DNA from: Methanosarcina sp. DH2
GTDB taxonomy: Archaea; Halobacteriota; Methanosarcinia; Methanosarcinales; Methanosarcinaceae
Assembly (NCBI RefSeq): GCF_020804225.1
Contig: NZ_WJBI01000009.1
Coordinates: 57,427 to 101,407, forward strand
Direction: 5' to 3'
DNA: 43,981 bases
Each line of letters opens with the position of its first letter. The stretch's first letter is position 1. Below are positions 16,852 through 30,848 of this stretch, piece after piece. The notes under the pieces are model-generated. The model saw only the letters and a program-made list of their open reading frames with translations, was not told the origin of the DNA and did no database searches. The position numbers and the translations under genes are program-made.

Positions 16852-16910
16852 ATTGTTGAAAAAAGTGCAGGCTATGAAGAGAGTAAGCTGCCGAAAGAGA
16901 GTTACCAAAA

Positions 16911-17014
16911 GAAGTTGTGTAGAAAAAGTAATCAGAAGAAGTTGTGTAGAAAAAGTAATCAAAGAAGTTGTGTAGAAAAAGTAATCAAAGAAGTTGTGTA
17001 GAAAAGTAATCAAA
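16911..17014. repeat. Four-copy 26-27-nt tandem repeat after the ABC operon
   Basis: Units beginning GAAGTTGTGTAGAAAAAG start at 16911, 16938, 16964 and 16990. The copies are nearly identical, so the expansion is recent. There are no spacers, so it is not a CRISPR. Confidence 0.8.
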
Positions 17015-17947: not shown

Positions 17948-18154
17948 TTACTCAACAAGGCTGGCAAAACCGTATTTGGGAAGTACCCTTTCGATTTTGA
18001 TCCTGACTTCGTCGCCTACCTTGGTGCCCGGGACAAAGACTACAAAGCCCTCTATGCGGGCAATGCCGTCTCCCTGGCGGGCGATGTCCTGAATTGTAAC
18101 GTCGTAGACTTCGCCTTCTTCAACAGGAACAGAACCACTTTCTTCTCTGAACAT
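17948..18154 (-). CDS. Single-TRAM-domain RNA-binding protein, copy 1
   Basis: A 68-residue protein that is just one TRAM beta-barrel (VEEGEVYDVTIQDIARQGDG, then IARIEGFVVFVPGTKVGDEV), an RNA-binding fold also attached to tRNA-modifying enzymes. Small stand-alone TRAM proteins of methanogens act as RNA chaperones, some cold-induced (Ctr proteins of Methanococcoides). Start: I use the second ATG (MFREES). An in-frame ATG three codons earlier overlaps the AAAGGA ribosome site, and in copy 2 the earlier ATG is out of frame, so only MFREES is common to all four copies. It is the promoter-distal copy and the most diverged at its C-terminus (LPKYGFASLVE). Confidence 0.9.
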   Translation of the reverse strand: MFREESGSVPVEEGEVYDVTIQDIARQGDGIARIEGFVVFVPGTKVGDEVRIKIERVLPKYGFASLVE

Positions 18155-18213
18155 GAAAACCATTCCTTTAAAGGTTAAAGTTTATTATAACCAGGTAATT
18201 CTCTCAAATGCAT

Positions 18214-18420
18214 TTACTCGACAACGCTTGCAAATGCAAATTTCGGAAGTACCCTTTCGACCTTAATGCGAACTTCATCGCCGACCTTGGTGCCCGGGAC
18301 AAAGATTACAAAACCCTCAATACGAGCGATGCCGTCTCCCTGACGAGCAATGTCCTGAATTGTAACATCGTAGACTTCACCCTCTTCGACAGGGACTGAG
18401 CGACTTTCTTCTCTGAACAT
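18214..18420 (-). CDS. Single-TRAM-domain RNA-binding protein, copy 2
   Basis: 68 residues, same architecture as copy 1, 59 nt upstream of it. The upstream AAAGGAATG is shifted relative to the coding frame here, which fixes the start at MFREES (18420). It shares GTKVGDEVRIKVERV with copy 1 in the second half and its first 38 residues with copy 3. The gene spacing, about 271 nt per unit, shows tandem duplication. Confidence 0.9.
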   Translation of the reverse strand: MFREESRSVPVEEGEVYDVTIQDIARQGDGIARIEGFVIFVPGTKVGDEVRIKVERVLPKFAFASVVE

Positions 18421-18484
18421 GAAAAACCATTCCTTTAATTTACTTTAGTTAAATCTTTAGTATTAATTTAATTCCCTTGCGGAA

Positions 18485-18691
18485 TTACTCGACAACACTT
18501 GCAAATGCAAACTTGGGAAGAACCCTTTCGACCTTAATCTGGACTTCGTCTCCAACACTGGTGTTAGGGACAAAGACTACAAAACCCTCAATACGAGCAA
18601 TGCCGTCTCCCTGGCGAGCAATGTCCTGAATTGTAACATCGTAGACTTCACCCTCTTCGACAGGGACTGAGCGACTTTCTTCTCTGAACAT
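18485..18691 (-). CDS. Single-TRAM-domain RNA-binding protein, copy 3
   Basis: 68 residues from the conserved MFREES start; 64 nt from copy 2. The N-terminal half equals copy 2 and the middle (NTSVGDEVQIKVERV) equals copy 4, then it returns to the copy 2 ending LPKFAFASVVE. This mosaic looks like recombination or gene conversion inside the array. Role as for copy 1. Confidence 0.9.
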   Translation of the reverse strand: MFREESRSVPVEEGEVYDVTIQDIARQGDGIARIEGFVVFVPNTSVGDEVQIKVERVLPKFAFASVVE

Positions 18692-18755
18692 TAAAATCAT
18701 TCCTTTAATTTACTTTAATTAAAACTTGTATAGTAATTAACTTCTCAACCCAAAC

Positions 18756-18962
18756 TTACTCGACAACGCTTGCAAATGCAAATTTCGAAAGTACCCTTTC
18801 GACTTTAATCTGGACTTCGTCGCCAACACTTGTATTCGGGACAAAAACTACAAAGCCTTCGATACGGGCGATGCCGTCTCCCTGGCGAGCGATATCCTGA
18901 ATAGTTACGTCGTAAGTTTCGCCCTCTTCAACGGGCACAGAATTACTTTCATCTCTAAACAT
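18756..18962 (-). CDS. Single-TRAM-domain RNA-binding protein, copy 4
   Basis: 68 residues (MFRDESNSVPVEEGETYDV...), the promoter-proximal gene of the array as preserved. Start again at the second ATG. It carries NTSVGDEVQIKVERVLSKFAFASVVE. Upstream DNA to 19130 contains a decayed fifth copy, so this was once an internal copy. Confidence 0.9.
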   Translation of the reverse strand: MFRDESNSVPVEEGETYDVTIQDIARQGDGIARIEGFVVFVPNTSVGDEVQIKVERVLSKFAFASVVE

Positions 18963-19036
18963 CAGATTCATTCCTTTGACTTCTATTAATCAGCTTACGA
19001 AAGCTCCATCTATAGAACAGAAAAGAGTAAAAACAG

Positions 19037-20194: not shown

Positions 20195-20254
20195 ACAAAT
20201 GATGAGTTAATGAATAAACTCATAAAAACTCAAAGACAGAAAGGTATGTAAAAA

Positions 20255-20315
20255 CATAAATAAAACATAAATAAAACATAAATAAAACATAAATAAAACA
20301 TAAATAAAACATAAA
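20255..20315. repeat. 11-nt tandem repeat
   Basis: Five exact copies of CATAAATAAAA plus a partial sixth, starting 61 nt after the RHH gene stop. Perfect copies imply recent slippage. Confidence 0.85.
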
Positions 20316-25806: not shown

Positions 25807-26217
25807 TCAATACCTTTTCCTGTACTTCGCGAGGACTTCGCTATTTGCTTCAAAAGCTTTTTCTTCAATGTAACCCTTTTCCCGGGACCATTCAAAAAAG
25901 CTCTGGAGGACCTTTGCAGCTGTCCCGATGAACTTTTTACCTCCTCCTACTTCAACCACGTAGTCGTCAAGGAAGTCCTTAATTCCGATGGGACTGAGGT
26001 CTTCGGGGCCAAAAACATCAAAGTAACTTTTGTTTTCTCGTTCGGGCCCTGTGGTGTGAAGAGCCCTGTCTTCTTCTGACAGGTAGTCCTCAGCACTGAG
26101 TTCAAGGAATTCCTCGTAAAGAAGAATTACATCTTCACAATCCAGGAAGGCATCAGGCTTTAAACAGGCTTCCTGTTCGCTCAAGAATGTTCGAAAAGCT
26201 TCATTTATTGTGATCAT
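25807..26217 (-). CDS. Hypothetical acidic protein, possible SAM-like core-binding fold
   Basis: 136 residues, acidic, predicted helical. The region IKDFLDDYVVEVGGGKKFIGTAAKVLQSFFEWSREKG (read from about residue 75) resembles the helical core-binding domain of tyrosine recombinases in pattern, but there is no catalytic domain and no R-H-R-Y set. It is therefore not an integrase; a DNA-binding or adaptor role is only a guess. No ribosome-binding site is evident at the ATG. It sits alone between repeat-rich spacers. Confidence 0.55.
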   Translation of the reverse strand: MITINEAFRTFLSEQEACLKPDAFLDCEDVILLYEEFLELSAEDYLSEEDRALHTTGPERENKSYFDVFGPEDLSPIGIKDFLDDYVVEVGGGKKFIGTAAKVLQSFFEWSREKGYIEEKAFEANSEVLAKYRKRY

Positions 26218-26357
26218 ACTTATCGCTGCAACGGTAATTTGTAGAATATTATCAGTTTGCTATAAAAAATCATATATTTTCTGGAAGAAATTAGGTACAA
26301 AATTTTGTCGTTGTTTCTATTTAATAGTGTTTCAAATAACAAACTAAAAAGCAACTT

Positions 26358-26552
26358 AATAACAGGAAATTACTAACAGAAATTAGTAATAAGAAATAAG
26401 CAACAGGAAACTAGTGTCGAGTCCACAGTAACGTGTCGTATAATATCGATTACAACTATTCAGAATCGTTCAATCCTTGAGGATTGACGCGACACTAGTA
26501 ACAGGAAACCAGTAACCGAGAACCAGTAACCGAAAACCAATAATGGGAAATT
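26358..26552. repeat. 14-nt tandem repeat array split by an insertion
   Basis: Eight units of about 14 nt (for example AGCAACAGGAAACT, AGTAACCGAGAACC) occur at 26358-26412 and 26499-26552, interrupted by the element at 26415-26494. The rest of the spacer 26218-26693 is a purine-rich tract then a pyrimidine-rich tract, with no gene. Confidence 0.75.
26415..26494. mobile_element. MITE-like 80-bp insertion with CTAG target duplication
   Basis: The 80-bp insert starts TGTCGAGTC and ends GACGCGACA, giving short terminal inverted repeats (TGTCGnGTC). CTAG stands on both sides (26411-26414 and 26495-26498). Removing the insert and one CTAG restores the 14-nt repeat unit AGTAACAGGAAACC, direct proof of the target duplication. 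An internal palindrome CAATCCT-TG-AGGATTG lies at 26471-26486. Four-base CTAG duplications are typical of IS5-type transposases (YTAR); the parent element is not in this window. Confidence 0.75.
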
Positions 26553-26693: not shown

Positions 26694-28403
26694 TCACATT
26701 GATTCGGGGGCACCTATCCCCAGGGTATCAAGAGAGTTTGCAAGGACAATTCTTGCGCAGTCTACAAGAGCAAGCCTTGCAGCCCTGACATTCTCATCCT
26801 CGGCTGCGATAACCGGGACGAAGCGGTAGAACTGGTTGAAGGCGTCGGCGAGTTCACGGGCATATATGGCAAGAACATGAGGCTTGAGTTCGCGGGCTCC
26901 AAGGTCGATTACACTGTCAAATGTTGCCATTTTCTTGATAAGATCAATTTCACTGTCCTCGATAAGGAGAGACGGATTAATCTCTTCTGCAGGATTCCAG
27001 GCTGCTTCTTCTTTTGCTTTCTCAAGGATGCTGCAGGCACGGGCATGGGAGTACTGGATGTAAGGGGCGCCCTGCTTCTCAAAATCAAGGGCTTCTTTCC
27101 AATTGAAGACTGTGGATTTTTCGGGAGAAACCCTTACAATGTCATAACGGACTGCGCCTACTCCGACCATTTCCGCAACCTGTTTTTTAAACTCGGCTGA
27201 GGTTTCGGGGCGCCGAGTTTCAACCTGCTCAAAAGCGGCTTTAGTGACCCTATCAAAGAGGTCATCTGCACTTATGAACTGGCCGCGACGGGTACTCATA
27301 GAGCCTTCAGGCAGTGAGACGAACTCAAAAATTACGACTTCAGGTTCCTTGATCCCGATTGAGTTCAGTGTAGCCCTTAGCTGGCCGGAAATAAGCTTGT
27401 GGTCGGCTCCAAACACGTCAATTATTCGGTCTGCCTGTTCGGCTTTCCATTCGTGATAGGCGAGATCGCGGGTTGTGTAAAGGGAGGTGCCGTTTGAGCG
27501 CTGGATAACAAGGGTTTTTTCATACCCGTAATCCGAAAGGTCAACCACAAGGGCTCCTTTGTCCATCTTAGTCCTACCGGTAGCCTTGATGCGTTCGACA
27601 ATATCATGCACTGCCCCGGATTTAAGGAAATGCGACTCACTGACGAATTTATCATGAACAACATTCAGACGGAGCAGAGTCTCTTTTATTCCTTCAACAG
27701 CCAGCGAAACTGCCTTATCAAAGCGTTCAATTGTCCTGACATCCCCAGTCTCCACCTTTTCCATGAGGGCATCAATTTCCTTTATATACTCGGGGGTTTT
27801 GTCCAGTTCGACATTGGCTTTGATGTATACGTCAGCAATTGCAGAGTCAGACTTCCTGAAAAGGTCAAGCTCAAAGCGCTCGCATGCCCAGGAAACTACT
27901 GCAATCTGTCTCCCCATGTCATTAACATAGTATTGGACCTCCACATCGTACCCTGCGCGCCTGAGAATGCGAGCAAGGGTATCTCCGATAATTGAGTTTC
28001 GGATATGCCCGACATGAAGAGGACCATTAGGGTTTGCCGAGGTGTGCTCAAGGAGAATCCTATCCTTTGGAGCTCCACAACCGAATTTCTCTTTTTCTCC
28101 CCGTACAGAAGTTACGGTCCTGTCCAGGTAGTGTCTGCCTGCAAAGAAGTTGATGTAAGGACCTGCAGCGCTCACTTTTCCGATATACGAGCCGTCAGGG
28201 ATTTCGATTGCAGAAACGATACGGGATGCAAGCTCTTTTGGGTTTTGTTTGTGAATGCCTGCAAGCCTGAAGGCGGCTCTGCTCGCAAGGTCAGCATGGG
28301 GAGAGGTTTCGAATTGAAGTTCAGAATCTTCAACTTCAAACCCGACCTTTCTGATAGCTTCTTTTAAGATTGATGTAGCCTGCGCTTTGAGTTCCAGGAA
28401 CAA
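26694..28403 (-). CDS. argS: Arginyl-tRNA synthetase
   Basis: Class I synthetase charging tRNA-Arg, 569 residues, normal length. An N-terminal additional domain (Add1) spans about 1-110. The HIGH signature is HTSANPNGPLHVGH (HVGH at 130-133). The KMSKS loop is the degenerate MSTRRGQF common to archaeal ArgS. The C-terminal helical anticodon-binding domain ends ...LDTLGIGAPESM. The start is TTG at 28403, with AGGTGAT 5 nt upstream, a near-perfect ribosome-binding site; no ATG fits. It follows prf1 on the same strand after about 250 nt containing no other gene. Confidence 0.96.
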   Translation of the reverse strand: MFLELKAQATSILKEAIRKVGFEVEDSELQFETSPHADLASRAAFRLAGIHKQNPKELASRIVSAIEIPDGSYIGKVSAAGPYINFFAGRHYLDRTVTSVRGEKEKFGCGAPKDRILLEHTSANPNGPLHVGHIRNSIIGDTLARILRRAGYDVEVQYYVNDMGRQIAVVSWACERFELDLFRKSDSAIADVYIKANVELDKTPEYIKEIDALMEKVETGDVRTIERFDKAVSLAVEGIKETLLRLNVVHDKFVSESHFLKSGAVHDIVERIKATGRTKMDKGALVVDLSDYGYEKTLVIQRSNGTSLYTTRDLAYHEWKAEQADRIIDVFGADHKLISGQLRATLNSIGIKEPEVVIFEFVSLPEGSMSTRRGQFISADDLFDRVTKAAFEQVETRRPETSAEFKKQVAEMVGVGAVRYDIVRVSPEKSTVFNWKEALDFEKQGAPYIQYSHARACSILEKAKEEAAWNPAEEINPSLLIEDSEIDLIKKMATFDSVIDLGARELKPHVLAIYARELADAFNQFYRFVPVIAAEDENVRAARLALVDCARIVLANSLDTLGIGAPESM

Positions 28404-30400: not shown

Positions 30401-30666
30401 ATCGCACTAGATATGAGACATAATCTTACTCAGACTGTATATGATAATTAAAGGTTTGTTTAATTTAAGATTGGATTAACCCATGACGGGATCATATCCT
30501 AATTGAAACTTAGGTTTATATTTGTTTCCATCCCCGACTTATTTTATATATTCATAAGACTATAAAAATCTTCCTGTACATGGGTCTCTACTTTAGAGTT
30601 CACCTCCGGACAGAAGAGAAGTAGAGAAAATTAGGGAAAAAGAATATGGAAAAAGCAAGCTAAAAA

Positions 30667-30848
30667 GGTTAGATAAAAAGGTTAGATAAAAAGGTTAAAT
30701 AAAAAGGTTAAATAAAAAGGTTAAATAAAAAGGTAAAATAAAAAAGGTAAAGTAAAAAGGTAAAGTAAAAAGGTTAAATAAAAAGGTTAAATAAAAAGGT
30801 TAAATAAAAAGGTTAGATAAAAAGGTAAAGTAAAAAAAGGTTAGATAA
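30667..30848. repeat. 13-nt tandem repeat, 14 units
   Basis: Units of GGTTAAATAAAAA with variants GGTTAGATAAAAA and GGTAAAGTAAAAA run head to tail and end 8 nt before the 3' end of taw1. Variant types recur in blocks, suggesting repeated slippage. The spacer from 29952 to 30227 is AT-rich with no gene. Confidence 0.9.

Follow-up and report, generated by a model that had tools for sequence, protein, structure and literature searches.

An 80-bp element that splits a 14-nt tandem array downstream of argS in Methanosarcina sp. DH2 is very probably a MITE that is not autonomous and descends from an insertion sequence (IS) of the IS630 family; a full-length relative would have moved it in trans, and the target duplication at its flanks, of the form NTAN, would be 4 bp long. 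The window, by which we mean the whole stretch of 43,981 nucleotides that was analysed, belongs to a 4.6-Mb genome (G000), and the array occupies the spacer between argS and a conserved 136-aa gene; relatives of the latter are encoded at five named Methanosarcina loci, and a Pfam scan of its product gave no match. The features of the locus are as follows.

25807-26217 (start at 26217), minus strand: conserved 136-aa ORF adjoining argS, from the ORF list
26356-26410, no strand: 14-nt tandem array, left part (Tandem Repeats Finder, 26356-26415, period 14)
26411-26414, no strand: target duplication CTAG, left copy (sequence, copy alignment, register test)
26415-26494, no strand: MITE core, 80 bp (sequence inspection and inverted-repeat search; other copies aligned to the core)
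26415-26423, plus strand: left terminal inverted repeat TGTCGAGTC (sequence, IS end comparison)
26486-26494, minus strand: right terminal inverted repeat TGTCGCGTC, read inward (sequence, IS end comparison)
26495-26498, no strand: target duplication CTAG, right copy (sequence, copy alignment, register test)
26499-26543, no strand: 14-nt tandem array, right part (Tandem Repeats Finder, 26497-26543, period 14)
26694-28403, minus strand: argS (TIGR00456, E 1e-168)

The two terminal inverted repeats pair at 8 of 9 positions and lie within a longer inverted repeat of 14 nt (26410-26423 / 26486-26499, 93% complementary), and no entry in a list of ORFs of at least 80 aa overlaps the element. Short, non-coding, bounded by inverted ends, flanked by a target-site duplication and dispersed in multiple copies, it has the properties of a MITE, as an earlier note had read from this one sequence, and because other copies exist it is not a chance pattern.

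Period-14 arrays were found independently on each side of the element by Tandem Repeats Finder. When deletions of 76 to 92 bp were placed at offsets of -4 to +4 and lag-14 matches were scored across the resulting joint, only the 84-bp deletion brought the array back into register, with 11-13 of 14 matches (12-13 at the best offsets) as against 9/14 at most for every other length in this range. The insertion into the array that the earlier note had proposed is borne out by this result, whereas its statement that removing the element and one CTAG restores the array exactly was slightly too strong: the register returns, but even when rejoined the array is not perfect, with agreement at lag 14 in 49 of 63 positions. 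The array units just right of the insertion carry CCAG in place of CTAG. The same note had taken the single sequence as proof of a CTAG duplication; the duplication stands, with CTAG on each side of the core, but a palindromic CTAG in one copy cannot separate a duplication of 4 bp from one of 2 bp (TA), which the non-palindromic sites of other copies can do. Over the whole window (1-43981) there are fewer CTAG sites than trinucleotides predict (23 vs 57 expected) and fewer GGCC sites as well (50 vs 104 expected), and six further four-letter palindromes tested there were near expectation. Minisatellites also occur elsewhere in the window, at 30661-30836 (13-nt unit, 13.5 copies), 20251-20315 (11-nt unit, 5.9 copies, 100% matches) and 16908-17014 (26-nt unit, 4.1 copies), and a 271-bp tandem unit at 17948-18977 (3.8 copies, 83% matches) could represent repeated genes.

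The length of the duplication was assessed from 136 aligned copies, mostly near full-length, which were chosen among the matches listed and are not all the copies of these genomes. We scored 133 of them, leaving out L225 (wrong coordinates) and the truncated L027 and L023; this count takes in L026, a longer copy of 95 bp, and L188, and a 131-copy count was made without both. Five copies (L102-L106) were picked for their ends, all five being also among the matches listed, and the copies are not all independent, L102-L104 being closely related though inserted at different sites. CTAG stood on both sides of 94 of the 133 copies and on one side only of 23. The remaining 16 copies had CTAG on neither side: seven differed between the two sides and nine carried another identical NTAN pair (GTAG twice, CTAC three times, TTAG twice, ATAG and CTAA once each). 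Identical pairs were far more frequent in this class than in shuffles, whether it was counted as 9/15 (131-copy count) or 9/16 (133-copy count): the shuffle mean was 1.8-1.9 and none of 20,000 shuffles reached 9. A wider shuffle over the 38 copies that were not CTAG/CTAG put the nine identical pairs only slightly beyond the chance expectation (mean 5.2, fraction 0.049). One copy, L188, speaks against the reading, as both of its ends are intact and it shows no direct repeat (CTGT / ATAC). Among the full-length relatives, five of six IS copies in genome G009 were CTAG/CTAG and one was CTAA/CTAA; a second IS630 group with eight copies in G002 and a third with six copies in G009 had CTAG on both sides throughout. 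One transposase of each of these two further groups was scanned, and both belong to the IS630 family.

These counts bear on the strongest competing explanation, in which the element is likewise an IS630 MITE but duplicates only the canonical 2 bp, TA, and itself includes the outer G and C (G-TGTCG...CGACA-C). A TA duplication is the standard for IS630 and ISY100, as described in the cited passages (PMC2170065), and at CTAG sites the two models are indistinguishable; moreover, 5 of the 23 copies with one-sided CTAG fit the 2-bp model unchanged, and a single later change would reconcile L167 and L229 with it. This model calls for xTAG on the left and CTAy on the right at sites without CTAG, however, and 0 of the 16 such copies fit it unchanged, whereas nine of them are flanked by identical direct repeats. 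Eleven of the one-sided copies have NTAN on both sides, and six of them misfit and five fit, as would be expected from later mutation. In addition, the IS copy flanked by CTAA/CTAA differs from its five CTAG/CTAG sisters by only 3-4 of 1200 bp. The base beside TA thus follows the target and not the element, and a duplication of 4 bp (NTAN, mostly CTAG) is a better reading than the standard IS630 TA; a TA-only duplication, which we consider improbable, is disfavoured already. The insertion is nonetheless at TA, as in the IS630 family; a study of IS630 has reportedly found preferential insertion at the TA in CTAG.

The family of the partner was assigned from elements that share the ends of the MITE. 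In G002 an open frame of the IS630 family, which is Tc1/mariner-like, lies between two matching ends spaced 1217 bp apart, and end pairs about 1-1.3 kb apart contain IS630 gene matches. Two open frames, of 167 or 151 aa and of 232 aa (stop to stop), are present in the 1200-bp IS copies of G009 and G001, and in the G009 copy the first of them has HTH domains. The second frame of the ~1.2-kb IS, scanned in copy L093, matches NCBIfam NF033545 (E 1.9e-44) and Pfam DDE_3 (PF13358, E 2.4e-29). The overlap of the two frames lies at an A7C run that is kept in all four ~1.2-kb IS copies examined, which suggests programmed -1 frameshifting; the G002 copy, in which no open first frame exceeds 90 aa, is probably dead. 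The MITE consensus agrees with the four ~1.2-kb copies at 17-19 of 19 bp at one end and 18-25 of 28 bp at the other. For the window copy, 23 (L115), 19 (L113), 17 (L117) or 15 (L116) of the first 28 bp agree with the IS end at which the transposase starts, and 19 (L113), 18 (L116) or 17 (L115, L117) of the last 19 bp with the end at which it stops; the middle of the MITE matched none of the six IS loci compared.

This assignment runs counter to the mover suggested in the earlier note, an IS5-type transposase elsewhere. Some IS5-family elements do make a 4-bp CTAG duplication, which speaks for such a mover, but the full-length elements found with matching ends code for IS630-family transposases, the end pairs about 1-1.3 kb apart led us to reject an IS5 partner, and we regard this origin as very improbable. 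Nor does a mover appear to reside in the genome itself: the search for a transposase with the same ends, which the note had proposed, found the partner in other genomes, and G000 has no close one, its two IS630 matches being only 30-31% identical to the partner transposase. Of the 30 genus genomes, 22 gave a transposase match, and G004, G007, G013 and G021 have MITE matches and no transposase match; the link between the MITE and IS630 thus rests on ends found in other genomes. In genomes of this kind the MITE may have outlived its mover or arrived with one that was later lost. Two further kinds of element were seen in these searches. L095 (G005:C2:1600927-1601412), 486 bp long, has matching ends and no recognised transposase and is perhaps a longer non-autonomous relative. 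L099 and L100 (G000:C25 and C16) start with CTAGTGTCGCGACAATTTAATTATT, resembling the ends of another IS630 group, and may be MITEs belonging to it or what is left of its elements.

It is also very improbable that the element is a regulatory repeat or a functional RNA of the spacer that lies in the array by chance, for which a hairpin (CAATCC-TTGA-GGATTG) in its right half might speak, since target duplications flank the copies, folding as single-stranded DNA was no better than that of shuffles (z -0.81, either strand) and no Rfam match reached the gathering score, the weak ones all running from 26488 rightwards over low-complexity sequence; a structured RNA was accordingly rejected.

The MITE family was matched in 25 of 30 genus genomes, own genome included and among the matches listed, and, at the level of the family, in 30 of 111 genomes from 3 of 14 genera, again with the own genome included. 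The search for further 80-bp copies that the earlier note had advised thus proved productive: G000 has two copies, and as many as 31 matches were listed for one relative. Its second proposal was to look for empty sites. The element is absent from the six orthologous argS-downstream spacers that were aligned (G011, G008, G022, G010, G001 and G007; the best six after G000 among 30 genomes with a match at the locus), in which the best ungapped identity to the 80-bp core was 35-37 of 80. These are not base-for-base empty sites, because the orthologous arrays (L107-L112) have diverged and CTAG is absent or single in five of the six stretches. The 14-nt motif differs between species, apparently homogenised within each, and the array region has been lost in G010; therefore this repeat turns over fast. 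A search for an orthologous empty site of the second G000 copy returned its own locus and repeat copies. As judged from these alignments, the 80-bp element appears to be mobile. Elsewhere in its argS-downstream spacer, G001 (L111) has a different CTAG-flanked element of 82 bp with similar ends, which is not among the MITE matches listed.

MITE copies were also found next to other elements with one CTAG shared between them. Among 130 copies (the window copy left out; end patterns allowing 2-3 mismatches), 28 of 260 MITE sides abutted another element end in this way, compared with 7 of 170 sides in the CTAG background (p 0.018, Fisher's test), a modest excess measured against a background that was taken from element-rich loci and itself includes chain members. 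The second G000 copy heads the chain CTAG-A-CTAG-B-CTAG-B-CTAG (L101, 1003-1299), where A is the MITE and B another repeat, and G002 contains a head-to-tail pair of MITE copies with one CTAG common to both. Repeat B is a second CTAG-flanked, MITE-like repeat of ~100 bp with two copies at L101 1087-1299 (G000:C34); its ends are TGCWTCGATTCC and TATTGCGATTCCG, and one end motif was matched exactly 14 times in G000. Because each insertion copies CTAG, elements would give landing pads to one another. A broader proposition, which we hold to be evenly balanced between true and false, is that an archaeal two-frame IS630 lineage shifted from a 2-bp TA to a 4-bp NTAN stagger favouring the rare CTAG, and that families of MITEs (A and B) and of IS elements (two or more further IS630 groups among them) assemble into chains with CTAG at the joints.

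These comparisons of sequence show the family, its ends, the duplication, the absence from the relatives aligned and the agreement of the ends with an IS630 element; from them we infer mobilisation in trans, cut-and-paste chemistry, the frameshift, and the timing and origin of the transposase. The MITE would derive from an IS630-family insertion sequence, and its mover would be the transposase of a full-length relative of ~1.2 kb, whose two overlapping frames are probably fused by -1 frameshifting at the A-run. This transposase would recognise the common TGTCG-type ends, cut the MITE out and paste it into an NTAN site, CTAG being strongly preferred, and repair of a 4-bp stagger at the target would produce the 4-bp direct repeat. 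The target here would have been one CTAG-bearing unit of the 14-nt intergenic array between argS and the small conserved gene.

IS630-derived MITEs are known, and the most unusual trait here would be the 4-bp duplication. A close analogue is RUP of pneumococcus, a repeat of 107 bp with ends like those of IS630-Spn1 that uses TA-containing targets and lands in other IS elements, as described in the cited passages (PMC2229807); the last habit parallels the CTAG chains, whereas RUP is bacterial and its target is described as containing TA, and the present element is archaeal, 80 bp long and CTAG-biased, with a 4-bp duplication. For the duplication itself, ISHsp2 of Halomonas is a published bacterial precedent: this IS630-family element of 1078 bp carries an HTH ORF followed by a DDE ORF, with a putative motif for -1 frameshifting at an A-run, and it makes a 4-bp TTAA duplication with a central TA, for which it is called divergent in the part of the source consulted (PMC3606827); it differs in being an autonomous bacterial IS with a TTAA target, and a MITE is not mentioned in that part. 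Because ISHsp2 is filed in IS630 despite its 4-bp repeat, we filed the partner there by its transposase and not by duplication length. IS630 and ISY100 have in common with the partner the transposase family but, as described in the cited passages, duplicate 2 bp (TA) and have only one transposase gene (PMC2170065). Sulfolobus, a crenarchaeon, is described as having archaeal MITEs of other families, SM1-SM4, in tens of copies (PMC10969869). Among the open-licence PMC papers listed, none on the present MITE family was seen, and a name may already exist for the IS and even for the MITE.

The locus provides a natural insertion whose empty state is readable from the split array and which indicates the transposase family, and more than 130 insertions of the MITE and its relatives allow a duplication of 4 bp to be told from one of 2 bp. 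If this reading is true, the stagger of IS630/Tc1-mariner transposases would be more flexible than the TA rule suggests.
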